This document shows, piece after piece, positions 3,650-59,545 of a stretch of 64,000 nt of DNA (position 1 is its first letter; each line of letters opens with the position of its first letter). Made by a program: the position numbers and the translations under genes. A model generated the notes under the pieces. It worked only from the letters and a program-made list of their open reading frames with translations, searched no databases and was not told the origin of the DNA. The stretch is from Rugalucina vietnamica (Eukaryota; Mollusca; Bivalvia; Lucinida; Lucinidae): positions 6,798,006-6,862,005 of the forward strand of contig OZ024877.1 of the NCBI GenBank assembly GCA_964017185.1, read 5' to 3'.

Positions 3650-3857
3650 TGTAAGGGTCTTTAACTTGCGTATATCCCTGATTTGGTATCCCTGACACCA
3701 TAGAACTTGAGCGACAAGGTCAAATGCCATAATGTAGGGCCGTACGTTTGGTTTGATTGGCCCACGGGTTTCAGAGATGTTTGAAAAGTGTGAACAACGA
3801 TGATGACAACTACTATAAGCTCACCTTGTGAGCCTAACGACTTGGGTGAGCTAAAAA
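3650..3857 (+). mobile_element. T1 HINE 3' fragment
   Basis: Decayed core (GATTGGCCCACGGGTTTCAG) followed by the terminal hairpin AGCTCACCTTGTGAGCC...GGTGAGCT and AAAAA. Only the 3' end of a T1-type element remains. The hairpin apex is mutated relative to the copies at 5953 and 23879. Confidence 0.6.
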
Positions 3858-14922: not shown

Positions 14923-15475
<553 letters not shown>

Positions 15476-36700: not shown

Positions 36701-39700
36701 ATATAATATAATACAGTATGAATATGATTTTATTTAAAAAAAATAAATATTTACTATATATAATCATTCATCGGCAACAAATTTTACTAAAAATATAGGA
36801 AATAATTTCAAAATATAGGAGTATTTATAGGAAAATAGGAGGTGCTTAAAAATATAGGATTTGGACCCAAAATGTAGGAGTTTAATAGGAATATAGGAAT
36901 TGGTTGACAGCCTGAGTTATTTTATGAGATATAACATATTTACCATAAGAACCCTACAGACGTCTTTGGTCTGAAAAATGACGTCAAAGTTGCGTATTGC
37001 ATTTCTGTGTGTTAGTATTGCCAACAAAAAGACGCATTTGCTTAAACTTGTTTAAGCATTGGCCAAAAACTATTGTGTAGATAGACGCATATCGTCCTTT
37101 CAGGCAACGTGTCGAAATTATTTTGTCTATTCTCATGACTATGCGGCTGCTATGGTTAGCGTTTTACAAGACATATACATAATTTAGGTTTACAAAAAGC
37201 TTAAACAAGGGCAGATAACTCCATGTATTGAGAAAAAATATGTTCTAAAACTACTCTTTTTGATAGCTGAGTGTTCAAACATTACAAATACAGTGTTATT
37301 TCTAAAACATTTATTGCATGATTTTCCTGCTTTTTTGCCGTTTATACCAGTAACATCAGCATGTCCGAAGGTATGTTTTGTCGCATTGCGGTTCATATGC
37401 CAAAACCTTACAAACATTTTCATGACAACATCTGTGTTACATAAGGTGAAAAACAAACCACCACCAAAAACAAAATGTCACAAAGCCATACTGAAAGAAA
37501 TTGTATTACTGCATTCTCAGTCCGTTACACTGCCAGGGTTTTGTAATTTATTACCCAAATATTATTCAACCATTGTAAAGGTTGAAAATTTTTCGCTTTT
37601 TAACCCACATATAAGTATAGCCCCTGATACAACACTGCAAAATGGTGCTACCCATGGAGAAACCAGGATAGTTTTACAAACAGATAGATACTATGTGTAT
37701 TGTTAAAATGTTTAGAACAGAATATTTCGAACATGAAGATCGATTGCTGGTATACTAGCACACTGGTAAATGTAAAAGTGCTGGAGCTGGTTGCAACGCA
37801 CTGGTGCAGTCTAAATTACAAACTGGAGTAAGATTAAAATGGCGGAAAAGGTAAATAAAACTTATATCTCTCTTCATTATCATTCCCTTATAAATTTGTG
37901 TGCGTGTTATTTGCCATGTCACCTGGTGCAGAGAAGGGCGAAAGCGTTGTAGTTTATGATTTTATCACGCAATATGTGATTTATTTCATGGGTTAGAAGC
38001 CAAATCCGATAGTTTTACGAGCATGACTGGTGGCATGTGTTTTCGTGCCAAAATTGAGGGAAAAATGCATGTCTGAGCATAGTTTTTGTCATATTATAGT
38101 ATATTTATAAATAAACATTCAAGGAACAAGATTTCCGATCGCCATTTTTTTCTTGGTATCGAAGCAAACGTTTTATTGAGGATTTTCTATTACAACGCAC
38201 TGTGAGCATTTTTTGAAGCATTGGTACAACGCACTGGTGATTACACAAACTTGCTTCAGGGTTGCGTCTAACTTGTCCAGAAAAACAGAGACATTATTTT
38301 ACAGTGTTCATTTCAATGATGAAAAAAGCCGTAACACTGAATTTTCATACAGTGATGACATTGACCAAAATGTGTTTTCATTATGCTACCTAATATCGAA
38401 GACTTTCACGGCTGTAAAATGACAATTTTTAGATGAAAAATTGATTTTTGTTCTCCTTTTGCTTAAACAAAAGACGTTAGAGGCGATTCTTAGAGTACAC
38501 ACAATCTATGTGTCAAGCGAAAATAAGAAAATAATGTATATTTCTGTACCACCCGTTTAGCTATATAATGTGGGGTCTGAGGTTCACGGACATAATTTTA
38601 TTATGTATTTTCTTGCTTTACTTTCCATGTTTTCAGAACTAGAACCCATTTATCCTCATCACCCCACTAACAGTCCTTGTCCATTAACCTGAGCACCCAG
38701 ATCTGTCAGAAAAAAGAAAGTTACAAATGCGTTATGTCCTATTTTTCAAATAGGTCGATCTAAGTTTTTAAGGACTTTATTTAACTGGATATGAAAAAGA
38801 CTGTGCCTTGTTTTATTAATGCTTACAACCATTCATTTTGGGGCTAGATGGCGGTTTTTTATTTGGTCTGCAGATGCGCTGGTTGGTTTACTTCCCAGCT
38901 TTTCTTACATTTATACAGATTCTTTGTGACGAAAATAGTGCTATAATCCAATTTAAAGTACTGAATAAAATATAAAAGTTTGAACCTTTGGAAGCAGTGA
39001 AAGCGTTCAAAGGGAGGTAGTATGGACCATATTGTGCAATTTCGAGTACTGAACTCTCATCAGTGGCCCTTTATAAACCGGTCCAATGGACCTATAAGTC
39101 ACTTCTGGCGAAAGTCAAATTAAAACTATCAATAGAACAACATGTAGTTAATTATTTACATAAAGGAAATGCTTTCGTTCATCAAATGCGTTACTTAGGT
39201 ATTTAGCTGTCTTTCTTGAATAATTGTTCATCAGAATGGTAAATTTATCTATCACTGATAGTGTTGAGAATAAATGTTCCGGTGAAATCTGAACAGATAT
39301 GAGTTGGCATCATTATAGAGGTCACAACTGAACAGAAAATGTGTTTCATCTTCGATCTGACCACCTGGACAGATTTTAGATAGTCTTTGTTCAGGGTTTT
39401 CACCAATATAACGGCCAGTCCCTACAGGCAAAGGTAGTATTCCAATTCGAAATTGAGCAAGGATAGAGCGTTCCCGCCTATTTAGGTTCATCAAAACGTA
39501 TTTTTCAACATTGTACGATGTTTTAAAAGTTCTGTATGTTCTCAGTTTGGATACTGTTTGTATTTTATGTGACCAATCACGCGTGCACATGTCATACAGA
39601 AGCTGATTCCCATTGTTAATATCACAAACCTCTAAGTGTTCAAAGCACTGTGATAACCCAATTTTATTCATTATACACTTGACATAAGCTCTCCAATTAT

Positions 39701-42700
39701 TTCTGCATATATTGTAATCCCATAGGAATATGTTTTTCACAATCGCGAGTTGTCCATCTGAATTAACCTATTCCAGTAACGTAGAATATTGCATCGTCGT
39801 CGTTCTTTTGCTGGGAGCCAACCGATATCACCATTTATAGCTAGTTAATTTGGAACAAAACCATGCACTCCTAAAAAGTATCTGATGGCTTTATATACAG
39901 TGTAGCCACATGGGTGTTTCGTTGCATCTCATGGAAGTGGTACGAAGTACCGAAGTGTAATAGAATAATATGACTGTAACAGTTTTAACGCTTTATGAAT
40001 TTAAAATATTTAGTCAATACATTTGTTATGAATTCACTTTGATATCTACATGCCCCAAAAATATGCCGCCACTTTTTTTGTATCTACATCTTTTATAAAG
40101 CAAGACACATAAAAGCATTAAAAGACTTTCTTTAACCATAAAGTTTGGAAGTAAAAGTGCAACATCTGCTAGCCGGTCAGATGCAAAATGGTCACAAATG
40201 AATGTAGACGCAACCACTTAACAACGTGACCTGAAAAGGGTATGCTGACTCGTAAAGACAAGTTTCTGTTCTAGTTTACGTAGGATTTTATAAATGACCG
40301 CTTTAAAATACTGTAAATTCGGAAATTTTCGCGTGACTTTTATTTCGCGAATTTTCTATTTGCGAATTATTAGCGAGTTCTTGAATTTGCGAGTGAGTGT
40401 CCATGTATTATATAGAGTTTATAGTGACTCTTTATTAGCGAGAACTTTGAATTCGCGAGGCAACCAATTCGCAAATATTAGCGAAAATTAAGTTCTCGTG
40501 AATATTTCTGGATCTACAGTAATGTCTGTTTTTTCTCTGGGCTAGTTAGATGTTTTGCCTATGCGAAATCAGCAAGTTTGCGTAACCACCAGTGCGTTGT
40601 ACCAATGCTTCAAAAAATGCTCTCAGTGTGTTGTAATAGAAAATCTTCAATGAAACGTTTGCTTCGGTACCAAGAACAAAATTGGCGATCAAAAATCGTG
40701 TTTCTTGAATGTTTATTCATAGATTTACGATAATATAACAAGAACTATGTTCAGACATGCATTTTTCCCTCAATTTTGGCACGAAAACACATGCCACCCA
40801 TCATGCTGGTAAAACTGTATCGGATTTGGCTTCTAACCCATGAAGTAAATCACATATTGCGTGATAAAATCATAAACTACAACGCTCCCGCCCTTCTCTG
40901 CGCCAGGTGACATGGCAAATAACATACACACAAATTTATAAGGGAATGATAATGAAGAGAGGTATAAAATTTGTTGACCTTTTCCGCCATTTTAATCTTA
41001 CTCCAGTTCGTAATTTAGTCTGCACCAGTGCGTTGCAACCAGCTCCAGTACTTTTACATTTACCAGTGTGACTAGAGCCGCGGCTATTATATTTCAGCTG
41101 GTCTGCTTTGTTCTGAATTGGACATGCAACTCATTGAGCTTTTGTGTACGGCTTGAAAGTTTTGTGGTTTTTTTTGTTTGTTTGTTTGTTTTTGTTTTGT
41201 TTTTTGTCTTTTTTTCCTAGCAGACTGAGATTACTTGATATCAAAGCTTTCTTTCAATATAACCAGTTAGTTTGGTATGAGCTGCATAATGAGAAACCAG
41301 CTTTTGTCAACTGATTTTGAGATGTTTGAAACTTATGAAATGCTAAGCTGGTATTTGCACAGTTGTAAAAGTGATGCAAACTCCAAAAGATAATGGTGCA
41401 ATGTTAAAAACCAGCTTTTGTCAACTGTTTTTGAGATGTTTGAAACTTATGAAATGCTAAGCTGGTGTTTGCGCAGTTGTAAAAGTGATGCAAACTCCAA
41501 ATGAGCCGCCCCATGGGAAAACCAACAATCTGCATAGGCGAAAACAAAGGCGCAGATCAGCTTCGCTGATCAGCGCCTTTGTTTTCGCTACTCAGATAGT
41601 ACAATTCCTCTTCTACTTAACTCCAAAATTTCAAGCTTCTAGCCTGCTTCTGTAGCTGTACAGGCCGGTTTGTGTCGGACCTGTTCGGAAACCACATTGC
41701 TGATTTTCCCACGAGGCGGCTCAAATGATAATGGTGAAATGTTAAAAATAGAAACAAGGGAAAGAATAAATACAACATCAGGAAAACATGTCCGTGCAAT
41801 GAATACCCCCTTAAACCCCACTTTTATATAGCAAAACTGGGGTATGCAGGGGGTTCTAACTTGTACCCACAATCTATGTTTTGAGCAAAAATAAGAAAAA
41901 TATCAAAAATTTTCTATTGAAAATTTTCATCTTTACAACTTTAAAAATCTCTGTATATTGCATGGGCATGTTTTCATAATGAGAAGAAGATGAATACTTT
42001 TTAAAATGTCTAACATATGAGCCGGGCTATGAGAAAACAGTATTTGCAAAAACAAAGACACAGATCAGCTTTGAGTAACTACCAAGCTGATCAGAACCTT
42101 TGTTTTCGCTACACGGATAGTACTATTCCTCCTATACTTATATCTAAAATTTCAATATTCTAGCTTTCTACTGAGAATTGACAGGCCATTTTGTGTCAGA
42201 CCAGGTCACAAACCCCGAAGACCAGTTCGAGGCTCATATATCAAAAGTTAGAATTAGAAGAATGAGATATATTCTACAGCTATATACACTTACTTTCTTC
42301 AGCTAATGATGAAAATGAAAATAAAAGAAGCATGTTGTTAATATATGAAAATGCATCAGCCAACATATAGGATAATATGAGTATTCTGTGAGATTTGCCA
42401 TGCAGCAACACAGAATTCCAGCAAACAAAGCAACATACAAGAATAAGTCTACTCCAAAATATGGTTTTCAATACATATTTTGAGCCGCATCATGAGAAAA
42501 CCAACATTTTGCATACAGCCTAATATGCAAAAACAAAGACGCAGATCAGCCTCGCAGTAACTGCAAAGCTGATCAGCGCCTTTGTTTTTGCTTCAAGTAT
42601 AGTACAATTCCTCTACTTTTTAAATGCAAAATTTCCAGCCTCTAGCCATTCTCTGTGCTTGTACAGTTCGGTTTGTGTCAGACCTATTCGGTAACCACGT

Positions 42701-45700
42701 TGTTGGTTTTCTCAAGACGTGGCTCATATCTAGCTACCACTTCTAATTCACAAGAATCACAGCTAATAGCATTCAAAGAAAGAAAAAGGTAAAAAGTTAT
42801 TATTTTTTATCTCATCTTCTAATTTGCAAAAGTAAAGATACTATAAACTATATTTCAGCCGCAATTACTGCACAGCTGATCTGCACCTTTGTTTATGCAT
42901 AGGCAAAACTCAATTTTTTTCTTAATGAAGATCAGATATGCTTAAAAGCAGTTCTTAACAAAGCTTTTCTTTGCAAAATATCATCGATATGTACCTTCAT
43001 AACTAGTCTGGGAGCTGGTCTGTCGTTTAGCCCTCCTGACAACCCGACCTGGTATGATCTTGTCTGCGGCAGGTTTCTTGGTTACATCCTCTATCTGTAC
43101 AGGAACTATATCAGTCCTGCCGTATACAAACAAAACATTTTACATTATGAAAACTTGCTCATGCAATATGCAGAGTGTTTTGTTGTTGTTTTTCGGCAGT
43201 AAAAATTGAAAATTTCATAGAAGTTTTTTTAATATTTTCAATATTTTTGCTCAAAACATGGATTATGGGTACATGTTAGAACTGCCTCTCAGACTACCCA
43301 CAATCTATGTTTTGGAGAAAAAAATGTTTACCCCTGTTAGCCCCATTTTTTCTATATAAAACTGGGGTTTAAGGGATTATTCTTTCCTGATGAGAATAAG
43401 TTCTGTACTGCTTCTAAAATGTACTTTCATTCTACCTGGTGTCTGGGTTTGGGATTTTAAATTTGATTGTACAATCTCTGTGCTTTCTATTCCTACTTTA
43501 CCACAGTTTTGGCATCATGTGAGTTTGCAAAGTAGTGCGAAACTGCACCCTGTGTAATAATTTATCAAATCAGTATTTTACACATACAATTCATTTTCTG
43601 AAACCGCTTAGATTTTTTTTTATTTCAATAACATGTTTTTGAAGGTGCTGATAATTTGTGGTCATACATGGTGGTGGAAGCAGAAAAATGTACCACTAAA
43701 ATTGGAAGGTCAACCCATGACTCTAAAATGGCATGTTTTTTTTTTTTTCAAACAAATGAGCCACCTCGTGGGAAAACCAACAATGTGGTTTCTGAACAGG
43801 TCCGACACAAACCGGCCTGTACAAGCACAGAAAACAGCTAGAAGCTTAAAATTTCGGAGTTAAGTAGAGGAGGAATTGTACTATCCGAGTAGCGAAAACA
43901 AAGGCGCTGATCAGCTTCGCGGTTACCGCGAAGCTGATCTGCGTCTTTTGTTTTCGCATATGCAGATTGTTGGTTTTCTCATGTGGCTGCTCAAATGCTG
44001 CCAGCCCTGAAGCACTTGGAAATCTAACATCACAAAACGTGACTGTTGTGGTACAGTTTGTAGCCACCATAAAATATTGCTACCTTTCATCTTTAGCCTG
44101 CTGATCGAGGGCCTCTGTAGCGGAGTCTAGGGGGTGCTGCAGGGCACAGATCTGGTTCATCAGCTCACCCATCAGGAACCTCGTCACAAACTGGTCAGAT
44201 CTGCCACTCTGCTGATAGGTCTAGCAGAAAATGGAAATTTATGGTAATAAAATCCTTGTTTGTTTGTATTGTCTTATAAAGGTCCCAGTCAACAATTTGA
44301 GCCGCCTCATGGGAAAACCAACAATCTGCATAGGCAAACAAAGACACAGATCAGCTTCACGGTAACCGCAAAGCTGATCAGCGCCTTTGTTTTCGCTACT
44401 GCAATAGTACAATTCCTCTTCTACAAAAATCCGAAATTTCAAGCTTCTAGCTCTTTTCTGTGCTTGTACAGGCCGGTTTGTGTCCGACCTGTTCGGAAAC
44501 CACATTGTTGGTTTTTCCACGAGGCGGCTCATTTTTCAGTCATGTCTCTGACAGAGTCATTGCATCCTGTATATTAACCAATATTCTGAGGAGTTCATGT
44601 GCCTTGCTCAAGGACACAACACTGGGTCCCAAGTGGAGATCCAACCCAGGATCTCTCGATTTATAGTCTGAATCTCTAGCACTATGCCACTTAATCTTTA
44701 CATTATAAAGATGTCTGTGGGGTTCATAGAAACAGACTGTGTTGCATGTTAAAAAATGTTATAATGAGAGTATTTACAAGATATACAACAAACTAGAAAT
44801 TGGCTGCAAGCAAGGCTTTCAGTATACCCCCCCGCAAAATTATCTAAAGCTGACCAATAACTTCCTAAGTCAAACATGCAGAAAATTTGTCAAAGATTTC
44901 TTTTCGGCATTATAATCCTTCATGTACATCCCCAGTATGCCAGTCACATCTATAAGATATTAAAAGAATATATTGAAAGCTTGAGGTTGATTTCACTGTA
45001 TGCACTATGATCATTGTTTATCATGAAAAATGGTAAAAAAATGGCTCAGTTAAATAAAAGCTGTAAATTTGTCAAAAATCAAATGTTCAGCATGAAAATT
45101 ATTCATGCACATCTTCAATATATCTGGAACAAATCTACAAAGAATTCAAGAAATACACTGAAAGCCCTTGGAGGAGTTGATTTCACAAAGTATGCACTAC
45201 CAACCATTATTGTACATAAGCAATGGTCAAGAAATGGCTATGTTGAAAAATGATGTAAATTTGTCAAAAATCACTTTTTCAGTATTATAATTATTCATGC
45301 ACATCTTCAATATGTGTGGAACATGTCTGCAAAGTATTGAAAAGAAATACTGAAAGCCCTAGGAGGAGTTGATTTCACAAACTATGCACTACCAATCATT
45401 ATTGAATATGGCAATTATCTAAAATTTGGCTAAGTTCAAAATGCTGTAAATTTGTCAAAATTCATTTTTTCAGCATAATACTTCTTCATGCATATCTTCA
45501 ATATATCTGGCACATATCTGCAAAGTATCAAAAGAGAATATTGAAAGCTGTAAGAGGAGTTGATTTCACAAAGTATGCATTATTAGCACCATGGCAAACA
45601 TTCTATGTACGAGGGTGGTTCAGAAAGTTCTGTCATACGTGTTATAACTTTGTTAATATACATGATAGGTTGCTGTATTATACCTTGATAGAAAGGGCTA

Positions 45701-48700
45701 CATTTCTCCTTTATAATGATGCCAAAACAATGCACGAACGAAATAAATACTTCGAAATACATGCCTTGAAAGACACCTGGGGTAAAACCACTGGCACGTT
45801 TTCTTGAATTTGTGAATATTATTGTGTGCGTTTCATGCGTTATATCTTTATAACTTCCGATCAAATTTTCTCCAACTTTACAGTTATAAGTAATAATATT
45901 ATTTAGAAAAGCAATGTGACAAAAATTGCCGTTATCGATGCTATGCTGACTTTATAATAAAGTGATGTATATGACGTCATTAAAATACGTACCCCTATAG
46001 CGTTTCTGGCACCGCTGCACCATTATATGTTTTTGCTTTTTTATAAGTTTGCTATAGAGCACGCTAGGATGAAACAATTAAATGGTTAAATGCATTTTAA
46101 GCTCCCTGGACTACGTGTAGATGTCAATAAATGTCATTTGAATTTAAACCGTATTTTTAATGTATGTACAACAAGCCAATTTCAGTATTTCATTTTGCTA
46201 TAACTCAATTAAATTCAGATGAATGATTTTGATTTTTGCAGGATATATTCATCTATGTTTCAAAAATATATTACATGGATTATATTTTTTCAAAGTCGAT
46301 TTTCTTTAAATAATATTCACAAATTTAAGAAAACGTGCCAGTGGTTTACCCCTGGTGTCTTTCAAGGCGTCTATTTCAAAGTATTTATTTCTTTTCGTGC
46401 ATTGTTTTGGCATCATTATAAAGGCGAAATGTAGCCCTTTCAATCAAGGTATAATACAGCAACCTATTATGTCTATTAACAAAGTTATAACACATATGAC
46501 AGAACTTTCTGAACCCCCCTCGTATAGGTTTAAAAAGTCCCATAACTCTTGCAAAACTGACCCTTTGGCCCCTAAATTCATATCACACGTGTTGTCTGAT
46601 GGTGCAGGTGTGTTGAAAATTTGAAGAACATCGGGCAAAAACTACTTAAGTTATTCAGCAAAGATGTCAAAATGTTGAATGAATGACGGAATCACGGAAT
46701 TACGGAATCTCGGACAGGCTGAAAACAGTATACCCCCATAAAACTTCGTTTTGCGGGGGGTATAAATACATGTAATCCATTTGGGAGCCATTATGGCCAT
46801 GTTACAATGAAAATCACATTAAAGCAAGTCACATTATAACGCTGTTGCCCTGTACCATTCAATTTCAAAATCTGTACAGAAATTGAATGCATATAAATTA
46901 CACAAGCATACAAGTACCTTGGCTGTATCAACAAGTAGATTGCTGACTTTACTATTCAGGTCCTCCACTAGAGCATAGATCTCCTTGAACAGTCCCAGGT
47001 GCTGGGAGAAATAGTCACACAACTCACGGGGATCAATGAAACTAAAAATGATATATTTGAGCCTGTGCGTGAGAAAAACCAACAATTTTGGTTCCGACCA
47101 GGTCCGACACAAACCTGTCTGTACAGTCACAGAAGATGGTTACAGGCTTGAAATTTTGGATTTAGAAAGCAGACGAATTGTACTATCCGAGTAGCAAAAA
47201 CAAAGGCGCTGATCAGCTTCGCAGTTACTGTGAAGCTGATCTGTGCCTTTGTTTTTGCCTATGCAGATTGTTGTTTTTCTCATGCGGCTGCTCAAAGACT
47301 CTAAGTTTGCAAATGTGAGAACTTAATTTTCGCGAATATTCATAAATTTAATGCCTCATGAATTCAAGATTCTCCTTGCCAATATTCGTGAATTTGATAT
47401 TTCACTAACTCAAGATTTTCACTAAAAATCCCTATAAACCATAAAGACTACATGAAAACCTGTTCATGAAGTCATTACTTCGTGTATGGTCCAGTAATGT
47501 ATTTTGACGCACATCTAATTTGACGCACCATAGTATTTCTGCCAGTTTTAGAAGTACCATAGGTTTTTTGTCAAATGCCAGTCATTTTAAGTAATTATCA
47601 ACTCTTAACTGTTATATCTAAGTAATTAAAGGAAATCTTGTGAGTGTTTAGGAAAGACTATGTCAGATTTTGTTTTGGTACCCTGTTTTTCTGTCTTTTT
47701 TTCTTATGACACTTTCTTCACATGAATGACGTAGCAATTGTTTTTCTTTAACTCATTTCATTCATATAAAAATATTCTCATTTGCTAAAGCATCATTTAC
47801 TGCATAGATCTAGATCAGAGACACATCCCCAAAATACCTATGCACATAAAATATTTTGTTTCAAAATTATGTCCCGTCTTATATATTTTGTGTAATGTAA
47901 CTTGATGGAGAATAAATTGAAAAGTTGACCTCTGGACTTTGCTGACTGAAAATGATCAATTCAATTGATGAAAATCTTTGTTAGTTAACTAATTTAATAC
48001 CCAAAGAACAATTTTGTCTGTGATAATGGTCCATGCCAACAATCATAACAAAAAATATTTGTGCTTCAATTACCCTACCCCTAAAATCTGATGCGCCAAA
48101 ATGGTGTCCATTTTCTAAAACAAGCACATAACTTTAGGCACACGTCTAAGTAATATAAAGTTATTTTTCCTCATTTGCTATTGCTGTACAGGTCAGGGAT
48201 TGTCTCCAGGGTAATAAAATTATCCTGTACAGGTGCAGTGTCTATTGCAGTGCTGCACAAGTGAGAATGTCAAATCAAATTCAATGCGTCATTTCACATG
48301 TCTGAAAACCAAAATTGCAGATTTTAGGGTAGACTGATTTCATGGTGATTTTTCTCACTAAAAAGCTGCAAGAGACATTTTAGGAGTATTAAATAACGTG
48401 AAGGAAGCCACTTAATGCATTGCATAACCCCAAAATGCTTTGAATATCTTTGGAAAAGTACAATTGTCAATAGAATGCTTAAGTGCGTCAAAACCCATTA
48501 CTCTAGGCTATAATAAGAGAAAATTCGTGAAATAAAAGTCACCCAAAAATTTCAGATTTTACAGCATATTGTTTAATGTTTATCCATGTACGAGTAAAAA
48601 ATTATACGCTGTATCTATGTTGGTATTTCTCATATTCTTTGTGAGTGTAAACCTGTGATTTTGCATGAAAACCACATGTAACAAGTAAACCTGTAAAATG

Positions 48701-53671: not shown

Positions 53672-55509
53672 ACACACAAGCCGAAAGCAATATGCCCTTC
53701 CAACTTTTTCAAAGTTTGGGGCATAAAAAGTGTCAGCATACAAGATCTATTATGTCTGCCCCATATATGATACAATCATACTCCATGACTATAGATCCAA
53801 TACAGTACAACCTCATTATAGTGCTATCTTTGGGGTCCACAGAAGGATTAGAAGCAGTGTGTGTTATAAGTACCAGAGGATCAATGGTCCTGATATTGCT
53901 TACCTCAGATTTGGTCTTTGATAAATGACCTTTGGCTTAAGGCATGTTGTACAAGGTAAAAAGTAAACTTGACCTTGAATACTCACACTCTACCAATTTT
54001 CAGATCACAGGCTACAAAACTTTCTGGAAAATCCAATGTTTCTACTTGCATATGTAACAGTACTTGACCTTGCTGTTTAATAGGTCAAGGTCAACCCAAG
54101 ATAATGATTTATACAAACTATAATAGGCCAGATTAAAATCTGTCCACCTGTTCTAGAGCAGAAGATTTTGTAAGGTTATTACCATATATGGGCATGGCGG
54201 CCATCATGGTCATGTGACCTGGACCATTTATACATACTTTGGTTCCCCCTTCCATACTTTTGGTGACGTGTCACTAGAGCTGCTGTCTGATTGGCAGAGC
54301 CCAGCGCCCTAAAGCTGAGAGCAAATGTGTAAGCTGAATGAGTAAATCTCACAGAAATTTTGTTTTTAAAGCAGGAAATCAGATTTTTCTTATGAAACAT
54401 CATCTGACTACAAAATTTAATATCTCTTCAACCTATATGCAAACTAGGATCTTGTTTTTCACCTGTAGTGAGTTTCATGTTTGAAAATGTGATGTGTAAA
54501 GTGAAACATTTTTACCCCACTTAAAACATGCATGGAATTGAGTCTGTGTGACACACTTGGAATGCTAAGTACATGCATGGAACTGAGGCTGTGTGACACA
54601 CTCGGAATGCTACTGTGTATACATGGGGATTGTAAACAACAGCTGAAGGTCTGGGTCTAATACTAGGGGGGTAATGACTAGGAGCAAATGGTTTGTGGGC
54701 AAAACAACCCAGATTCATAAACAACAGCTGAGTGTCTAAGCCACTGACCACAGACTAAAGGATGCTGCAATCAGGAAGCGAGGTAGCTCAGTGGTTAGCG
54801 CATTGGCCTCTGGTACTACAGGTCCTGGGTTCAATCCCCGCCAGCAGGGAGGAAAATATAGTGGTCAGAACACACATCCATGCGTGTCATTAGCAGGTAT
54901 GACATGAACACAGTGCGCCGTCCTCTGGATCGGAGGCCCCCTGTGCAGAGAAAGTCGTCCCCTGTGCAGGTTAAAGATCCCTACACAGGTTCAATCCTCA
55001 TGCAAACACACCGGCGTGTACAATGTACACCTCCCTATAATAATCAGAAATTGATTGATGGGAGTAACAAGAAAATAACATAACATTTGTAAAGGCATGG
55101 TGCATAAAATTGTCATCTTTCTTTCTCCAGAGTCGATCAATTTCTGATCATCACCTCAGGTGTTTAACTGTTGCTAATATAATTGTTCTTGTTTTGTTTT
55201 GTTTTTTTTGTTTTTGTTTTCCTGTTACTCCCATCAATCAATTTCTGATTATTCTTGGGAGGTGTACATTGTACACTCCGGTGTGTTTGCATGATGAGCC
55301 TACATGCATGAGGATAGAACCTGTGTAGGGATCTTTTTACTGTTTATTGCCTTAAACCTGTGTAGGGATCTTTAACCTGCACAGGGGATGACTGTCCTTG
55401 CACAGGGGGCCTCCAGTTAACGTCCCGATCCGAAGGACGGCGCACTGTATCATGTCATTCTTACATCTAGAAAAACCAACATTCCCTTTTCGACGTTAGT
55501 GGTTTCCAT
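27682..55509 (-). CDS. NECAB: NECAB-type EF-hand calcium-binding protein, 14 coding exons
   Basis: Join, in gene order: 55509-55465, 49961-49937, 48903-48795, 47041-46918, 44220-44084, 43116-42995, 42302-42294, 36484-36458, 34020-33935, 33263-33210, 31517-31408, 30948-30871, 30039-29948, 27704-27682. The total is 1,041 nt, 346 aa plus TAA. Every intron is GT-AG and all phases agree. Residues 21-66 hold two EF-hand loops (DKKDDGKISWEE; DTHKTNFIDPRE), with ELCDYFSQHLG next. QFVTRFLMGE (about 110-120) begins the NECAB-specific region. Residues 200-228 form a coiled coil (VDRLTSLLDRLEN). Residues 247-346 (SYVEVTNAAPGCL, MYEVW, SILIPASWW) form the monooxygenase-like C-terminal domain. Length and block order match vertebrate NECAB1-3 (about 350 aa), which are neuronal Ca-binding proteins. 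Introns are crowded with MITEs. Exons 7 and 8 are the least certain because dropping either keeps the frame. Confidence 0.93.
27737..27974. repeat. M1 foldback MITE copy
   Basis: GAGCCACGTCATGAGAAAAC..TTTGTTTTCTCATCATGGGGCTC with the central palindrome CTGATCAGCTTCGCAGT/ACTGCGAAGCTGATC. Flanks ATAT/ATTT. It lies about 30 bp upstream of the exon 14 acceptor. Confidence 0.8.
28373..28584. repeat. M1 foldback MITE copy, central part shortened
   Basis: GAGCAGCAGCATGAGAAAAC at the left and TTCTCATGTCATGGCTC at the right. The central palindrome is mostly lost (only GATAATCAGCGCC). Confidence 0.65.
28739..29329 (+). mobile_element. Tandem-core element with TGTCTCC hairpin end
   Basis: About 3.5 units of roughly 155-180 bp (GGACACGACT; CATCAAAGGGCAATAACTC; CAATCCAGAGTTACGGTTCT) end in a GACAGACGGACAG tract and a 3' hairpin TGTCTCCGACCCC/GGGGAGACA followed by TAA. 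Same architecture as the HINE-type elements with a third kind of end. Lies in NECAB intron 13. Confidence 0.65.
29329..29601. repeat. Foldback MITE, family M2
   Basis: AAGTTTATAAAACATTTTTC at the left and GTTTTATAACCACGGGACC at the right, with the central inverted repeat CTCATAAATGTTAAAATGCC/GACATTTCAACATTTATGAG. Confidence 0.75.
29699..29885. repeat. Interspersed repeat family M5 (GGGTACATGTTAGAACC)
   Basis: ACCCCCTTATACCCAACTTT, then TTGTTAGAACCTCCTCGG and a complementary GTTCCAACATGTACCACAAT. Copies also lie near 30625, 34908, 41803 and 43250. Palindromic and non-coding. Confidence 0.55.
29948..30039 (-). CDS. NECAB: NECAB exon 13
   Basis: 92 nt between the acceptor TGTTGTAG and the donor GTAAATA. 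Encodes HTQTDAGQAFLQGQDK and ends ERSILIP, joining in phase to exons 12 and 14. Confidence 0.9.
30125..30335. repeat. MITE family M3 with strong hairpin
   Basis: GGCTGGCGTCCTATTTATGG at one end. The hairpin at 30156-30222 has arms GCAAACAGTATAGTCCCAGA and TCTGGGGCTATACTGTTTGC. Same family as 35340-35565 and, disrupted, 31820-31970. Confidence 0.65.
30871..30948 (-). CDS. NECAB: NECAB exon 12
   Basis: 78 nt. The acceptor used is CATAACAG, because the later AG would break the frame. Encodes LTVRSAKGSNDFTMYEVW. The donor is GTAAGTT. Part of the C-terminal domain. Confidence 0.9.
31147..31393. repeat. M1 foldback MITE copy beside exon 11
   Basis: GAGCCACCTCGTGG with a short internal duplication (CATCGTGGAAAAACC). 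Central GCTGATCAGCTTTGCAGTTG/GCGAAGCTGATC. Right end CCCATGGGGCGGCT, the final C lost. It ends 14 bp from exon 11, just outside the splice donor. Confidence 0.82.
31408..31517 (-). CDS. NECAB: NECAB exon 11
   Basis: 110 nt, acceptor ATTACCAG, donor GTATGG. Encodes LLLKQVDMKIASGQEEAF followed by SYVEVTNAAPGCL, the start of the C-terminal domain. Confidence 0.92.
31549..31784. repeat. M1 foldback MITE copy, diverged
   Basis: GAGCAACATCATGAAAAAAA on the left, central ACAGATTAGCTCTGCAG, right end GGTTTTCTCATGATGCAACTC. Confidence 0.7.
31820..31970. repeat. M3 element, disrupted
   Basis: GAGTCCACTTTCATTTTTAG and a weakened hairpin from GCAAACAGTATAGTCCC to GGGACTGTTCTATTTGC (31915-31967). What looks like the remaining end (GACACCAGGCTTTAA) appears only at about 32556, so roughly 560 bp may have been inserted. 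Confidence 0.5.
32683..32913. repeat. M1 foldback MITE copy, old
   Basis: GAGCTGTGTCATGAGAAAAC at the left, central CAGATCAGATGTGCAG, right end TCCACAACTC. Lies 20 bp from the next copy. Confidence 0.7.
32934..33167. repeat. M1 foldback MITE copy
   Basis: GAGCCGCCTCGTGGGAAAAC..GGTGTGGCTC, flanked on both sides by AAAT. Near-perfect central palindrome GATCAGCTTCGCGGT/ACCGCGAAGCTGATC. Lies 43 bp from exon 10. Confidence 0.88.
33210..33263 (-). CDS. NECAB: NECAB exon 10
   Basis: 54 nt, phase 0 at both sides, acceptor TTCTGTTCCAG, donor GTTGGTG. Encodes VNFDGIVDEEVDVDKDEK, an acidic linker between the coiled coil and the C-terminal domain. Frame-neutral if skipped. Confidence 0.85.
33935..34020 (-). 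CDS. NECAB: NECAB exon 9 (coiled coil)
   Basis: 86 nt, acceptor TTTTTGTAG, donor GTAATAAC. Encodes QQALASTKQALETQ followed by VDRLTSLLDRLENR, a leucine-rich heptad stretch matching the predicted coiled coil of NECAB proteins. Confidence 0.9.
34075..34306. repeat. M1 foldback MITE copy with long flanking duplication
   Basis: GAGCCATGACGTG..AAGCGGCGGCTC with the central CTGATCAGCTTCGCAGT/ACTGTGAAGCTGATC. The host sequence ATATCATGTTAGTGATGGTT appears both about 27 bp before the element and right after it. Confidence 0.85.
34582..34793. repeat. M1 foldback MITE copy, short centre
   Basis: GAGCCTGTGCATGAGAAAAC..GTTTTCTCATGTGAAGGCTC flanked by ATCT on both sides. The central palindrome is reduced to GGCGCTGATCAGCAGTGCGCC. 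Confidence 0.82.
34908..35115. repeat. M5 repeat with palindromic core
   Basis: TACCCCCTAAAGCCCCACTT, then GATTGTGGGTACTTGTTAGA opposed by TCTAACGTGTACCCACAATC around a CTGCGAGGCGAGGCGG loop. Confidence 0.65.
35340..35565. repeat. MITE family M3 with 67-nt hairpin
   Basis: The hairpin at 35466-35532 has arms GCAAACAGAATAGCCCCAGA (first 20 nt) and TCTGGGGCTATTCTGTTTGC, continued by GACGCTGC/GCAGCGTC around GTTCT. Only one asymmetric base interrupts about 30 bp of pairing. Ends with GGGACACCAGGCTT. Confidence 0.8.
35754..36914. mobile_element. hAT-like element enclosing NECAB exon 8
   Basis: Inverted ends CAGGCTGTCAACCAA on both sides, flanked by AGTTATT at 35747-35753 and 36915-36921 (7 bp; hAT elements usually give 8). 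Inside are repeats of ATATAGGAGTTTATAGGA type and GGGGGCCGCCCAGGCCCCC. No transposase. The class is inferred from the CAGG terminus and duplication length. Confidence 0.65.
36458..36484 (-). CDS. NECAB: NECAB exon 8 candidate (27-nt microexon)
   Basis: Bounded by a near-consensus donor GTAAGTA and the acceptor ATTGATCCCAG, which has a poor pyrimidine tract. Phase 1 at both sides; encodes KAEITGDK plus split codons. It lies inside a transposon-like element, so it is either an exonised sequence or a chance match. Skipping it keeps the frame. Confidence 0.45.
36922..37753. other. Intron 7 sequence with an unassigned plus-strand ORF
   Basis: An open frame of 148 codons at 37260-37706 shows no domain I recognise. 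Its composition matches the surrounding AT-rich intron, so it is not supported as a gene. Confidence 0.35.
39246..39960 (-). pseudogene. LINE reverse-transcriptase C-terminal fragment
   Basis: Reads AIRYFLGVHGFVPN, GDIGWLPAKERR and WNRLIQM, then after a frameshift near 39740 continues as a 162-codon frame with FRIGILPLPVGTGRY and IEDETHFLFSC. These are features of the region after the RT in many LINEs, including the Cys/His knuckle (its first CxxC is degraded to CPGG). 5' truncated and frameshifted. It lies inside the 3.3-kb DNA element. Confidence 0.75.
40308..40522. repeat. MITE family M4
   Basis: CTGTAAATTCGGAAATTTTC and GCGTGACTTTTATTTCGCGA at one end, AAATTAAGTTCTCG and ATCTACAGTA at the other. 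Opposite orientation to the copy at 9785. Confidence 0.65.
41503..41722. repeat. M1 foldback MITE copy
   Basis: GAGCCGCCCCATGGGAAAAC..CCCACGAGGCGGCTC flanked by AAAT on both sides. The centre is shortened to GGCGCAGATCAGCTTCGCTG. Reverse orientation to most neighbours. Confidence 0.88.
41803..41960. repeat. M5 repeat
   Basis: ATACCCCCTTAAACCCCACT, TTCTAACTTGTACCCACAAT and GTTTTGAGCAAAAATAAG, as in the copy at 34908 but without the inverted half. Confidence 0.55.
42019..42234. repeat. M1 foldback MITE copy
   Basis: GAGCCGGGCTATGAGAAAAC..AGTTCGAGGCTC flanked by ATAT on both sides. Central CAGATCAGCTTTGAG/CCAAGCTGATCAG. Confidence 0.8.
42294..42302 (-). CDS. NECAB: NECAB exon 7 candidate (9-nt microexon)
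   Basis: CTGAAGAAA between a pyrimidine-rich acceptor (TTTTCATTTTCATCATTAG) and a consensus donor GTAAGTG. Phase 1 both sides; adds Ala-Glu-Glu with split flanking codons. Frame-neutral, so presence in the mRNA cannot be proved from sequence. Confidence 0.55.
42482..42725. repeat. M1 foldback MITE copy
   Basis: GAGCCGCATCATGAGAAAAC..GTTTTCTCAAGACGTGGCTC. Central CAGATCAGCCTCGCAG/CTGCAAAGCTGATCAG. Confidence 0.82.
42856..42910. repeat. M1 MITE fragment
   Basis: Only half of the centre and one arm remain: ACTGCACAGCTGATCTGCAC and TTTGTTTATGCATAGGC. Confidence 0.5.
42995..43116 (-). CDS. NECAB: NECAB exon 6
   Basis: 122 nt, acceptor GTATACGGCAG, donor GTACAT. Encodes TDIVPVQIEDVTKKPAAD followed by GRVVRRAKRQTSS, a basic linker like that after the NECAB-specific region of relatives. 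Confidence 0.88.
43250..43385. repeat. M5 repeat, rearranged
   Basis: TTATGGGTACATGTTAGAAC and CTACCCACAATCTATGTTTT around a short loop, then a displaced TACCCCTGTTAGCCCC arm. Confidence 0.5.
43758..43992. repeat. M1 foldback MITE copy
   Basis: GAGCCACCTCGTGGGAAAAC..TTCTCATGTGGCTGCTC flanked by AAAT on both sides. Perfect central palindrome GATCAGCTTCGCGGT/ACCGCGAAGCTGATC. Lies 92 bp from exon 5. Confidence 0.88.
44084..44220 (-). CDS. NECAB: NECAB exon 5
   Basis: 137 nt, acceptor TGCTAG, donor GTAGCA. Encodes SGRSDQFVTRFLMGELMNQI and ends ALDQQAKDE. The QFVTRF block is a strong NECAB family signature. Confidence 0.93.
44299..44530. repeat. M1 foldback MITE copy
   Basis: GAGCCGCCTCATGGGAAAAC..TTCCACGAGGCGGCTC flanked by ATTT on both sides. 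Central CAGATCAGCTTCACGGT/ACCGCAAAGCTGATC. Lies 79 bp from exon 5, on the side opposite to the copy at 43758. Confidence 0.88.
44816..46765 (+). mobile_element. HINE-type element T4 with tandem core
   Basis: The 5' subterminal TATACCCCCCCGCAAAA (44823-44839) complements TTTTGCGGGGGGTATA (46749-46764), the right arm of the 3' hairpin TACCCCC..GGGGGTA. The core has about four units of roughly 180 bp (GGAGGAGTTGATTTCACAAA; GTAAATTTGTCAAAAATCA). A CGGAATCACGGAATTACGG tract precedes the end. Interrupted by a mariner-like element at 45609-46527. Confidence 0.72.
45609..46527. mobile_element. Mariner-like MITE with 217-bp inverted ends
   Basis: Begins CGAGGGTGGTTCAGAAAGTT and ends with its complement (one base differs), flanked by TA on both sides. 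The inverted repeats cover 45609-45825 and 46312-46527 at about 93-95% identity. The roughly 490-bp interior has no transposase. Ends and TA duplication fit Tc1/mariner-type transposition. Confidence 0.8.
46918..47041 (-). CDS. NECAB: NECAB exon 4 (second EF-hand)
   Basis: 124 nt, acceptor ATTTTTAG, donor GTACTT. Encodes FIDPRELCDYFSQHLGLFKE and ends NSKVSNLLVDTAK. Completes EF-hand loop 2, whose positions 1, 9 and 12 are D, D and E while 3 and 5 are H and T. Confidence 0.93.
47059..47293. repeat. M1 foldback MITE copy
   Basis: GAGCCTGTGCGTGAGAAAAA..TTTCTCATGCGGCTGCTC with the central CTGATCAGCTTCGCAGT/ACTGTGAAGCTGATC. It ends 18 bp from the exon 4 acceptor side. Confidence 0.85.
47315..48566. 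repeat. M4 MITE split by a 1-kb insertion
   Basis: Left part GTGAGAACTTAATTTTCGCG to about 47490. Right part AAATTCGTGAAATAAAAGTC to 48566. The two halves are joined in the copy at 9785-10020. Confidence 0.6.
47491..48506. mobile_element. Inserted element with TTTTGACGCAC ends
   Basis: Inner ends TAATGTATTTTGACGCAC (47495-47512) and GTGCGTCAAAACCCATTA (48483-48500) are inverted repeats. TTTGACGCACC recurs near 47519. No ORF of note and the exact target duplication is not clear. Confidence 0.55.
48795..48903 (-). CDS. NECAB: NECAB exon 3 (first EF-hand)
   Basis: 109 nt, acceptor TTTTCAG, donor GTAAGT. Encodes DGKISWEEFVAFFADGVMGK, then LRALFEKIDTHKT. Finishes EF-hand loop 1, begun in exon 2. 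Confidence 0.94.
48951..49185. repeat. M1 foldback MITE copy
   Basis: Left end eroded (AACCGTGTCATGAGAAAAC). Central CAGATCAGCTTCGCAG/CTGGGAAGCTGATCAG. Right end CTCGCGTCGTGGCTC followed by ATAT. Confidence 0.78.
49424..49657. repeat. M1 foldback MITE copy, reference-quality
   Basis: 234 bp, GAGCCGCCTCGTGGGAAAAC..GGTTTTCTCATGAGGCGGCTC, flanked by ATTT on both sides, with a 15+15 bp central palindrome GATCAGCTTCGCGGT/ACCGCGAAGCTGATC. Confidence 0.9.
49694..49905. repeat. M1-like MITE, highly degenerate
   Basis: GAGCAACTTCATGAAAACAC and a central CATATCAGCTGTGCAGC/GCACAGATGAT. The right end is lost in GGTTACTCATGAC. Confidence 0.45.
49937..49961 (-). CDS. NECAB: NECAB exon 2
   Basis: 25 nt, acceptor TGTAACTTCAG, donor GTACAG. 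Encodes VFRRADKK and one base of Asp, opening EF-hand loop 1. Too short to detect alone. It is fixed by phase agreement with exons 1 and 3. Confidence 0.9.
50007..50818 (+). mobile_element. HINE-type element T2-E
   Basis: 5' GAGCTGTCGCAGGACAGCG then GCTTGCCTG (50028-50036). 3' hairpin CCTGTAC-TTTC-GTACAGG with CAGGCGAGC (50801-50809), which pairs with the 5' repeat (one G-T pair), then TAAAAATGG. The core is four units of about 168 bp (ACCTCAAGGTCACCCAGGTG). Same ends as 6836-9278 but another core. Lies in NECAB intron 1. Confidence 0.72.
50862..52333 (+). mobile_element. HINE-type element T1-C, 3' end missing
   Basis: 5' ACCAGAGGACCAATGGTCCT and GCTCACCTGAG, then 455-bp core units of the T1-A/B kind up to TTGAAATATACATG. 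The GACG tract and terminal hairpin are absent. The sequence changes abruptly near 52333. Confidence 0.7.
52334..52689. other. Unassigned segment
   Basis: About 350 bp between two repeat elements, with several ATGACGTC/AACGTCA-type words and no gene signature. Confidence 0.35.
52690..53725 (+). mobile_element. Tandem-core element with CA microsatellite
   Basis: Three units of about 305 bp (CAGCCCCAACCAGT; ACTTTTTGAGATATCTTGCA; ATATGGGTCAACTATTTTTT) are followed by a (CA)n tract (about 53613-53680) and a 3' hairpin ATGCCCTTCCAACTTT/AAAGTTTGGGGCAT then AAAAA. HINE-type layout. No 5' partner repeat found, so the 5' limit is approximate. Confidence 0.62.
53808..53872. repeat. Family Q fragment
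   Basis: ACCTCATTATAGTGCTATCT and TGGGGTCCACAGA, then cut off exactly where the T1 5' end begins. Confidence 0.5.
53873..54253 (+). mobile_element. T1 HINE 5' fragment
   Basis: ACCAGAGGATCAATGGTCCT, a decayed subterminal repeat (GCTTACCTCAG), then core modules (TAGGTCAAGGTCAACC; TATGGGCATGGCGGCCATC) to about 54253. No 3' end. Confidence 0.6.
54526..54612. repeat. 45-bp tandem duplication
   Basis: ACATGCATGGAATTGAGTCT..GGAATGCT is repeated at 54571 with few changes. Confidence 0.75.
54776..55090 (+). mobile_element. tRNA-derived SINE
   Basis: The head has a pol III A box (TAGCTCAGTGGTTAGCGC) and B box (GGTTCAATCCC) about 35 bp apart. The body contains GTGCGCCGTCCTCTGGATCG and AGATCCCTACACAGG. 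The tail includes AAATTGATTGATGGGAGTAA. The tRNA-like head has no convincing full cloverleaf, so it is a SINE and not a tRNA gene. Confidence 0.78.
55183..55450 (-). mobile_element. SINE copy, 5' truncated, inverted
   Basis: Reverse complement of the body and tail of the preceding SINE, lacking the tRNA head, with a CAAAA-type tail. An internal duplication repeats AAAGATCCCTACACAGG. Ends 9 bp from the exon 1 donor of NECAB. Forms a large inverted pair with 54776-55090. Confidence 0.75.
55465..55509 (-). CDS. NECAB: NECAB exon 1 (start codon)
   Basis: ATG at 55509, encoding METTNVEKGMLVFLD, then donor GTAAGA. The KGM..FLD block precedes VFRRADK in exon 2, as in vertebrate NECABs. Upstream in-frame codons stay open to 55770, but Met at 55509 gives the family-like N-terminus, so I prefer it. 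Confidence 0.85.
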
Positions 55510-55770
55510 CTTCTCGTTAAAATAGATAAAATATGCAAAAAATGTCAAAGTTGTCAAACAGCTTTGAGAGACTATTGTTATGAACAACGTTAATAGACTG
55601 TTGTTATGGTCAACGTGTATTTGGTGTTCCGGGTTATCTCGGCCAAAGACCACCTCGCTTCGGGACACATAGAGCGGTTCTCTAATGATATCAGGAGTGC
55701 CAAACGAAGCCATGGAGATATGGATGCATAAGGACATTGCTAACATTGCTAACAGAAATGTAGAAATCAT
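55510..55770 (-). promoter_or_regulatory. Probable NECAB 5' UTR/promoter region
   Basis: Directly upstream of the start codon. Contains a TATTTTATC TATA-like word and a 26-bp-spaced duplication (55568-55615) in which each copy has CATAACAA[CT]AGTCT, SOX-like in reverse. Transcription start is not determinable here. Confidence 0.3.
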
Positions 55771-55784
55771 ATTCAGGACCTTTA

Positions 55785-55903
55785 CCTACTTAGATCCAGA
55801 AATGTTCAAAAACTATATTACATATACAAGAGTCTAGTTAGGCCACATTTAGAGTATGCGACCGTCATCTGGGCGCCAATGTATAAAAAAGATAGAAACG
55901 ACC
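55785..55903 (+). pseudogene. CR1-like LINE fragment, left half
   Basis: Reads SLVRPHLEYATVIWAPMYKK, the region after the RT in CR1-type LINEs. It continues at 58840 with GNVQRRATKLV after the nested DNA is removed. An in-frame stop lies upstream. Confidence 0.7.
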
Positions 55904-56185
55904 TTGACCCCGAAACGTCAGTACAGCTCTACCAGGTATATGTGGTACCAACTCTCGTCTATGGTCTTGAACTTATTCTGCCAGAGCAACGACTTGTTGA
56001 CTCATTGGAACGGACAAACAAGAAGTTTCTGAAGCATATCTTGAGTCTACCTAACACAACAGCAGATTCTGCAGTCTATATCCTAACAGGAACCATACCC
56101 GTAGAAGGAGTAATACACAAGAGAGCACTTTCATTGTTTGGCAATGTTTGTCGACAGGAGAAAAACTCCACAGAGCAACGGTTAG

Positions 56186-57883
56186 CACAGTGTATATCCG
56201 AGCGTATGCAGAACAGACGGTTACGGAACGGACAGACGTTTACAGGAGCACGCGCTTTTTCGCGCCAAAAATGTTTTTCCGTTCTTTTAAAGTGACTAAT
56301 GCAAATATTGAGACCAAACTAGAGCAGATGTGTTGCATACATACCCGTCTAGTTGTCTGTGCTCAAGAGCACAATGATTTTTCAGGGGGTTCGCCATAAC
56401 TGCCCAAGACGTGTGAAAAATGGCATATTTTGTATTTTTTTTTGGCTGTGTGTCGAGATTGCCTGCAAAATAAGCCATTGTCAACCTTTTGGATTTAGTC
56501 CGTATGTAGTTAAATATGTCCTGAACCACCAGACATTAAATATTTTATATGTTTTCCAGTAAAAATAGCCAAGATTTTTTTTTTTTTTTCTGAAGCGTAT
56601 GGTAATTTCATGGTTACGGGGCGGTACAGTCGTTTGTTACGGAGCGGAACAGACGAAATGACGCATTTCCATACGAAACGGAACAGACGTAGGCGAGCTT
56701 TAGAATACGGATAGAAACAGACAAGCATTGCTAAATAGTAATAAACTGCGAGTAAATCAAATAAGTAAGATGCATGACAGAATCATATATGCTTACAAAT
56801 CACCCCAAAGATTTTATCTCCCGCCGCAAGCTCCCTTTTGCGGCGTCTTGGCTGATTCTCACGCATCATTCATATATGGAAAGACTTTGGAATATATGAC
56901 CGATGCTTTGGAGAGTACTCCCGCCGGTGTGTACGGAGGTGGGTGTTCGCTTGATGACTTTGCTTAATTAAGGACTGAGTATGCAAACAGGGAACCTTTT
57001 CCTTTGACCGAAATTCTAGGGTCTCTATACATGTATTACTAACGTATTCAGCACGAATGCCAGCCTTCCATATAGACCTCCGGTTAAAACAGACATGAGT
57101 CTTATTATCGGACCTTTTCAGACTTTTTTCAGTCTTTTATTTTAGAATTTATTGTTAGATATGCACTATTAGTGATACTATATTTAAAGGAGAAGAAAAG
57201 CCGTGATTGCCTCGTGATGTTGAGCACCAAGGAAGCCATTGGTACCATTTTAACGCATTTGATATGGCGCGGCCTGGGCGAACCCACGACATCTCGCCCC
57301 CGAAGCGGGCGCTTTTACCACTGAGCTATCGGGACCTCTCCCCCCTCTCTCTCTGATGCTGTTTGCCCCCAAACAACTTTTTGTTTTCACAACATAGTCG
57401 ATGCTATTCTGATACATGTACGATGCTGATCCAGGTCACCAGGTGTATTCCATCTGGTCACGTTCGAGTGCTACAATACAAAAGGTTGCCGCAAAGTGTT
57501 ATATTTGACATCACAGTGTTGTTCATGTAGTATTCATGGCCGTCTGTGACCGCTCCGTATGCTGATTCGTCTGTTTTTTTCGTAGGCTACGTCTGTTCCG
57601 CCCCGTAACATAAACGAATCTGTAGACTGTTCCGTTCCGTAATGTTTTTGTTGCTAAGCAACAAAATTCTGCTTAAACTACAAGGCTTCCATGCCGGAAA
57701 TTATGGTGTTTTGGAAGATAGTAGATTGACATGCAAGGCCGATATAACAATACATTCGAAGCATACAGTTTTGGATGAAAAACTGTACAAAACATTTTTG
57801 GCGCGAAAAAGCGCGTACGTGCTCCTGTAAAGTCTGTCCGTTCCGTAACCGTCTGTTCTGCATACGCTCGGATATACACTGTG
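56186..57883. mobile_element. 1.7-kb DNA element with CACAGTG ends (RAG/Transib-like)
   Basis: The ends are CACAGTGTATATCCGAGCGT and its exact inverse. Inverted repeats of about 100 bp continue through GCAGAACAGACGGTTACGGA to CGCGCCAAAAATG. The duplicated target GTTAG is at 56181-56185 and 57884-57888. Further copies of GTTACGGRGCGGWACAG-type motifs lie subterminally at 56610-56700 and 57540-57645. No transposase is encoded. The terminal heptamer equals the RAG recombination-signal heptamer and the 5-bp duplication is that of Transib/RAG transposases. CACTA-type elements (2-3 bp duplications) fit less well. Confidence 0.88.
57180..57345 (-). mobile_element. tRNA-derived SINE, minus strand
   Basis: On the minus strand: GGTCCCGATAGCTCAGTGGT (A box), an anticodon-arm-like GCCCGCTTCGGGGGCGAGA, and GTGGGTTCGCCC (B box). 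Then the body (AAAATGGTACCAATGGCTTC). It lies inside the CACAGTG element. Confidence 0.75.
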
Positions 57884-58839
57884 GTTAGCCATAAGGCAAT
57901 TAACAGTAAAAAGTTCTACTAGCAATAGTTGGTTTATCGACATAAAGAAGCTGCTCGTGAAATATGGACTTCCTGAGCCTGTGGAGCTGTTGGGGAATCC
58001 ACAAACAAAATGTGCCTGGAAACACAGGGTGAATAAGCATGTAAATCAATTCTGGACAAGTGTTGTCAAAAGCAGAGCAGCTCTGTATCCCAGTCTGGAG
58101 TATCTGGTAGTAGGCAACTATGCATGTGGGAGAATACATCACCTACTGAAGTCCTGCAAAAATGCTAGAGAGGTGCATCGGGTACATACCAAGCTGAAGA
58201 TAGCGACTGGAACTTATATTCTGCAAACAAAGAGGGCGTCATTCAATCAGAATGAGGTGAGGCGGACCCAACATGTATGATGTGCAGAAATGGTGACGAA
58301 ACCATGCAGCATTTCCTGCTACAGTGTCCTGTGTTATCCGAGATACGAGATCCCTGAACTCTATAGTAGAAGCTTGTAGTGGCTTATGTAACCCTGCTAC
58401 TGACACTGATACCCTGCTTGAGCTTATCATAGACTGTAGTGCTATAGTAGACATTCATACTCACGGTCAAAAACTGTCAAACATTGAATCTCTATCCAGA
58501 AGACTGTGTTTCGCTCTTAACTGTGAACGATTCAAGAGACTTGCCTTAATACCTCGGCGTAACAGAACTGTTTTAAAAAACAAGAAGTAGCTCCTTGGTA
58601 CATCCCAGCAGGGTTAATAAACATTCAGTTTTGAGAATTGCAGTTAAACTCCAGACATTTGGAAGTCAATGAAGTGTCTAGTGTAAATAATCTTAAACTG
58701 TAAATAACCGCGTTATAAGATGTGAATAGGGTGGTGGAGAAAGCATCATTTTAGATTCATCAATTCGTATTCTACTCGGCAACGAGGTGTCTCAACATTG
58801 GGAGAATTTATGTCAACAACAACAACAACAACAACAATC

Positions 58840-58987: not shown

Positions 58988-59545
58988 GTGTTCTTTTGAC
59001 GGAATGGACCGGAATGGGCCTGATTACCGGAATGGACTACCGGAATGGACATTGGTACTTTTCATTTGGTTTTTAAGACAGGGGGCTAGAATATGCACAG
59101 ACTGTGATTAGTCCGAGAATTGTGTGGTTTATGTGGCATAAAATTGTGTTCCTTACGATGGGATAGAAGCATAACTCAAATGCCCATGTAGGCCTGGGTC
59201 ACTGTCACAATGCCAACACTGCTTTTTTTTCACTCATTTCTATTTCTATTAGAATAACCCCTGATGTCTCTATTATATTTCTATCAAAGAAACCTCTAAA
59301 CAATAACCACACCCCAGACCCCACCCCTACTGAGCTATTCTAAACTACCATGGAAAGCAAGGTTTCCTACACTTAGATAAAACTTATCTTATACAAACCA
59401 CTTATGTGACTTCAAAAGTAATTTTGTGCATATAAAATGCATTCAAAGTAATAAATACCATAGATAAATGTCCATTCCGGTAGTCTATTACGGTAATGAG
59501 GTTCATTCCGGTCCATTACAGTCCATTCCGGTAAAGGAACGCACC
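58988..59545. mobile_element. 560-bp element with CCGGAATGGAC-rich inverted ends
   Basis: Left end GGTGTGTTCTTTTGACGGAA and right end (inverse) GGTGCGTTCCTTTACCGGAA. Both continue for about 65 bp made of repeated CCGGAATGGAC words. The interior is AT-rich without an ORF. The target duplication is unclear. Confidence 0.7.

Follow-up and report, generated by a model that had tools for sequence, protein, structure and literature searches.

Background

According to the portion of PMC12730594 used here, transposons of the EnSpm/Mirage/Chapaev/Transib clade mostly have CA..TG ends and make target-site duplications of 2-5 bp, those of the EnSpm families being 3 bp long, and the hAT superfamily includes lineages with 5-, 6- and 7-bp duplications. 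The parts of PMC7204232 and PMC4411706 at hand give 5 bp as the typical duplication length for Transib and RAG, and a lean towards GC is described for the targets of ProtoRAG, Transib and RAG (PMC8289069, in the part used). RAG-like transposons, which carry RAG1L and RAG2L, occur together with non-autonomous derivatives in bivalves, and the ends of the protostome ones follow the consensus CACTWMCAAACKTYKBB (PMC7204232, same portion); an algal RAG-like end, CACACCCAAACCT, has CAAACCT at positions 7-13 (part of PMC9435367). In the portion used of a survey of mollusc genomes by DDE profiles, Transib is represented by one element and hAT is among the richest superfamilies (PMC10294476).

Here we analysed a 64-kb stretch of DNA of the bivalve Rugalucina vietnamica (the window, meaning the whole stretch), in which a sequence-only reading had described a transposon, E1 in this work, with CACAGTG ends and proposed that a RAG-like or Transib transposase had mobilised it. 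We compare E1 and two other elements of the window, E2 and E4, with these systems.

Structure of E1 and of its insertion site

E1 is a real element of an ordinary kind. It occupies 56186-57883 (1698 bp, without assigned strand) and runs from CACAGTG to CACTGTG, and both the coordinates and the perfect ends given in the earlier reading are exact, with 16 of 16 terminal matches. The inverted ends, put at about 100 bp in that reading, measure 92 nt on the left (56186-56277, plus strand) and 95 nt on the right (57789-57883, minus strand); the arms are 94.8% identical over 96 columns and differ by two gaps (1 nt and 4 nt) but by no substitution. No second copy of E1 was found by sequence comparison within the window.

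GTTAG flanks the element on the left (56181-56185) and on the right (57884-57888), as had been claimed, but the full direct repeat is 7 nt long: GGTTAGC stands in register at both junctions (56180-56186 and 57883-57889). Two partitions consequently fit E1 equally, a 5-bp duplication with CACAGTG ends and a 7-bp duplication with ACAGTG ends. The ambiguous letters are the outermost C on the left and the outermost G on the right, which may belong to element or target, and the inverted ends stay perfect under both partitions. By analogy, we prefer the 5-bp partition as probably the better reading because the duplications of E2 and E4, whose ends are likewise CAC..GTG, are exactly 5 bp long and admit no 7-bp reading.

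When E1 and one GTTAG were removed in a script, the LINE-like reading frames before it (55753-56180, plus strand) and after it (57889-58280, plus strand) joined into a single frame, ...NSTEQRL-AIRQLTVKSS..., free of stops to 58280, and the frame that the earlier reading had drawn across the rejoined site is therefore open. Past 58280 the same protein, to judge by eye, continues in other frames, and the target is apparently a decayed copy of a LINE-like sequence. We take the frame to be that of a LINE from its look and its motifs; Pfam matched nothing in the part before the insertion and, in the part after it, gave a single weak match (E 0.045), unrelated and below the cut-off, and none of the 15 stretches that fit a peptide pattern was confirmed as a LINE relative by tblastn.

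The interior of E1 carries 20-nt subterminal repeats resembling GTTACGGARCGGAACAGACG, which lie in direct order within each side of the element and in inverse order between the sides. The left cluster (56613-56723, plus strand) has four copies, starting at 56613, 56636, 56670 and 56704 with 4, 1, 3 and 6 mismatches respectively, and the right cluster (57590-57643, minus strand) has two inverse copies, starting at 57643 and 57609 (3 and 2 mismatches). A spacing of 34 nt recurs among 56636, 56670 and 56704 and between 57643 and 57609. At the threshold of at most 6 mismatches there is one extra weak minus-strand match in E1, at 56650, overlapping a plus-strand copy, and outside E1 the window has a further two, each at 6 mismatches. 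With a 17-mer of the repeat and at most 3 mismatches the 64 kb yielded 4 matches, all of them within E1, where 0.04 were expected, which upholds the subterminal repeats noticed earlier as real. By their position, the subterminal repeats of E1, E2 and E4 are candidate binding sites of a transposase. An 18-mer subterminal motif occurred in one viral contig, L001, a match that we attribute to chance (its best E is 0.004, over 17 nt).

Six-frame read-throughs of E1 compared with Pfam contained no transposase and no RAG1L or RAG2L remnant, and gave just TMEM138 (E 0.21) and OB_ChsH2_C (E 0.24), both unrelated and below the cut-off; together with the inverted ends, this agrees with the earlier description of E1 as non-autonomous. 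A frame at 56873-57136 on the minus strand matched CaKB, a potassium-channel subunit family (E 0.0022), and this match we took as chance since its 18.2 bits lie below the cut-off of 25.1 and it is absent from the read-through of the same stretch. A tRNA-like stretch at 57265-57336 (minus strand), perhaps a SINE head, was noted by eye and was matched by neither ARAGORN nor Rfam.

Exact patterns from the ends were also scanned against collections of viruses and prokaryotes, where absence says little on an animal genome. The terminal 26-mer and 18-mer of E1 had 0 exact matches in viral_contigs and its terminal 20-mer had 0 in genome_contigs, and one end pattern each from E4 and E2 had 0 in viral_contigs.

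Two further CAC..GTG elements in the window

E4 (21510-22842, without assigned strand) is 1333 bp long. Its ends are CACGGC, its arms measure about 101 nt and are 88% identical, and its duplication, TGATT, is exactly 5 bp with no 7-nt reading. It sits in a repeat with further copies in the window. Once its flanks are joined, 14 further sites of the window align with them across the junction, the one at 3758 only distantly. None of the 14 is occupied, and each holds a single copy of the target, which reads TGATT at 11 of them and TAATT, TATTT and AGATT at one each. The 5-bp duplication of E4 is thus observed by comparison with unoccupied sites, and a CAC..GTG element did insert here with a duplication of this length. 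Within E4, TTAAATGCGTAACC is found in three exact copies, one copy with 1 mismatch and one with 3 (arm copies included), and six-frame read-throughs of the element had no Pfam match and no transposase.

E2 (37759-41070, without assigned strand) is 3312 bp long, with CACACTG ends, arms of 497 and 500 nt at 92% identity and the duplication ACTAG, again exactly 5 bp without a 7-nt reading. The inner CTAG is palindromic and the arm alignment overruns the ends by 4-5 nt; 5 bp is the sole symmetric reading, and lopsided ends with only CTAG (4 bp) duplicated are a possible alternative. E2 holds four exact copies of CAACGCACTGGTG and one with 3 mismatches (arm copies included), and its six-frame read-throughs likewise had no Pfam match and no transposase. 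An open frame of 171 aa inside it (39252-39767, minus strand) looks LINE-like and has no Pfam match.

The three elements are mutually dissimilar, as determined by comparing E2 with E1 and each of E4, E2 and E1 with the window, and their ends share little beyond CAC.

Scan of the window for elements with inverted ends

To be listed in the scan, a candidate needed exact terminal 6-mers, agreement at 13 or more of 16 terminal positions and an exact duplication no shorter than 5 bp; near-palindromic duplications were dropped, and the tandem arrays at 15400-21000 were masked in the real window and left unmasked in the shuffles. It returned 16 rows, six of which represent four clean elements, E1 to E4. 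The other ten, seven of which scored 15/16 or 16/16, were dropped: nine (around 24118, 26306, 41566 and 41567) are parts of a dispersed family of inverted repeats with arms that overrun the supposed ends, and the tenth, 41504-41721 (CAAATG, 14/16), is in the same family. Thirty order-1 Markov shuffles gave 28 rows, none at 15/16 (22 at 13/16 and six at 14/16), and an earlier scan of 20 shuffles had 0 candidates among the matches listed. A comparison of arm pairs covered 432 pairs, skipping those that start in 15400-21000 and leaving aside E3, whose ends are too short for inclusion. Five further pairs with a direct repeat of 5-6 nt were rejected as elements for their poor terminal match.

E3 (35753-36915) has short ends, (T)CAGGCTGTCAACC, that begin TCAGG or CAGG, and a duplication of either 5 nt (GTTAT) or 7 nt (AGTTATT); we take it to be perhaps hAT-like. 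A mariner-like element, as we presume it to be from its look, lies at 45608-46524 with TACGAGGG ends, a TA duplication and arms 93.5% identical over 217 columns, so that not every inverted repeat here follows the CAC..GTG and 5-bp pattern. Short inverted-repeat structures at 54899-55458 and 59003-59517 have arms of 105 and 51 columns, respectively, and no direct repeat of at least 5 nt at matching ends. A dispersed repeat with GATCAGCGCCTTTG extends over 24047-49661 in many copies and both orientations, and yields false duplications in naive scans. Elsewhere in the window, a long open LINE frame of 1122 aa (11518-14883, minus strand) contains a reverse transcriptase (E 3.3e-41), an endonuclease (E 1e-07) and a PHD finger below the cut-off; beside it is a TA array of 69 copies (14925-15062). 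Tandem arrays of a compound kind, made up of telomere-like TAACCC and 8-nt GTCGACAA-type units, occupy 15479-20963.

Which transposase moved E1

Given the CAC..GTG ends and the 5-bp duplication, we favour, with moderate confidence, the explanation that E1 was moved in trans by a Transib-like transposase of the EnSpm/Mirage/Chapaev/Transib clade. Under such a model, a DDE transposase supplied in trans would bind the long inverted ends and probably the subterminal repeats of E1, cut the element at its CAC ends and insert it into the LINE-like sequence through target cuts staggered by 5 bp, and the same class of enzyme would most likely have moved E2 and E4. The support is that three unrelated CAC..GTG elements lie within 64 kb, with a duplication of 5 bp that is exact in E2 and E4 and the best reading in E1. 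Non-autonomous Transib elements have CAC..GTG ends, a heptamer-like terminus and a 5-bp duplication, all of which E1 resembles if its duplication is read as 5 bp, and the E1 terminus matches at six of seven positions what we take to be the Transib heptamer, CACWATG. E1 differs from them in its ends of about 95 nt with clustered 20-nt subterminal repeats. Several further observations count against a Transib-like enzyme. The duplications are not GC-rich, in departure from the targets of ProtoRAG, Transib and RAG (G or C at 2/5 positions of GTTAG, 2/5 of ACTAG and 1/5 of TGATT, from three sites only), and the mollusc survey had its single Transib element. Moreover, E1 taken alone fits a 7-bp duplication equally well, the three ends agree in little but CAC, no transposase was seen in the elements and no second copy of E1 in the window.

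A lesser but genuine possibility is that E1 was moved by a hAT of the hAT5 type, with a 5-bp duplication, or by a hAT type with a duplication of 7 bp. Both lengths are found among hAT lineages, hAT is abundant in molluscs, and long ends with subterminal repeats suit hAT as well. The 8-bp duplication of the usual hAT does not fit an in-register repeat of exactly 7 nt, and a 7-bp type has no counterpart in E2 and E4. The starts of E2 and E4 also differ from YARNG, the form of usual hAT ends and not hAT5's own. If its duplication is read as 5 bp, E1 shares that length with hAT5; it is set apart by ends unlike the usual hAT form and by the lack of any transposase seen inside it.

Similarly modest weight goes to another or undescribed branch of EnSpm/Chapaev, or to another superfamily, making 5-bp duplications. 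Clusters of subterminal repeats are typical of CACTA elements, which E1 recalls in this respect and in its CAC..GTG ends; Ginger elements end in TG..CA, and Academ makes duplications of 3-4 bp. The range of ends and duplication lengths in the clade at large would accommodate E1, and three CAC/5-bp families in one window agree poorly with how rare Transib was in the mollusc survey. The repeat at E1 is 5 or 7 bp, however, in place of the 3 bp of CACTA/EnSpm. Among other superfamilies, Ginger2 fits in length, since its duplications are 4 or 5 bp in the partial source used, and was set aside for its ends, as was Academ for its duplications. The ends of IS481EU, given in part of the literature as TNT..AYA or TGT..ACA, do not fit either, though one copy of one family there has 5 bp.

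Descent from a RAG-like transposon with RAG1L and RAG2L, the other half of the earlier proposal, is unlikely and we give it little credence. E1 has the exact RSS heptamer at its ends, its duplication can be read as 5 bp, its first triplet is CAC as in the protostome RAG-like transposons, and such transposons live in bivalves. Against this, E1 agrees with the protostome consensus at only 8 of 17 positions, a score of at least 8 being reached by 79% of the 1476 CAC sites of the window (mean 8.9). It has TAT at positions 8-10 where the consensus has AAA, so that its heptamer match comes without the A-rich block common to RAG-like ends. The exact heptamer is absent from E2 and E4, and neither the coding search in E1 nor the base composition of GTTAG, ACTAG and TGATT speaks for a RAG-like source. 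With E1 not above the background of window CAC sites, E2 at 6/17 and E4 at 10/17 and 9/17, none of the three elements is RAG-like by the consensus score. E4 carries CAAACCT at positions 10-16 of its end, and only three CAC sites of the window have CAAACCT anywhere in positions 4-21, all of them at E4 ends; relative to the algal RAG-like end, in a comparison made post hoc, the motif is shifted 3 nt further in, and relative to the protostome consensus it has C where G or T is called for. Of the earlier proposal, then, the Transib signature of CAC..GTG ends and a best-read 5-bp duplication stands, and the RAG-like side falls on the consensus score.

Finally, that E1 is a product of chance or of assembly, to which the single copy in the window might point, is scarcely credible given that 0/28 shuffle candidates reach 15/16 where E1 has 16/16, that the frame is open across the empty site and that the subterminal repeats are structured.

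Implications for CAC..GTG elements

What stands out is that CAC..GTG ends and a 5-bp duplication recur, within 64 kb, in three families unrelated to each other, 5 bp being the best reading for E1. It is conceivable, though rather improbable, that an undescribed lineage related to Transib and RAG keeps many unrelated CAC..GTG families with long inverted ends, clustered subterminal binding sites and a 5-bp target that is not GC-rich, in which case E1 would indicate that the exact vertebrate RSS heptamer is usable outside RAG-like transposons. That this lineage is undescribed is conjecture, from a literature check that was not exhaustive. If the enzyme was hAT5 or another, a perfect CACAGTG end would be no evidence for RAG ancestry. 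The Transib-like class that we favour, whose enzyme was not found in E1, E2 or E4, belongs to the kind of enzyme that gave rise to the antibody-gene recombinase. If a Transib-like transposase did move these elements, the presence of three non-autonomous families in 64 kb would imply far more activity of such enzymes here than the profile survey suggests, and E1 would lend itself, as a natural substrate, to learning how a RAG1-related enzyme reads the RSS heptamer without the A-rich block.
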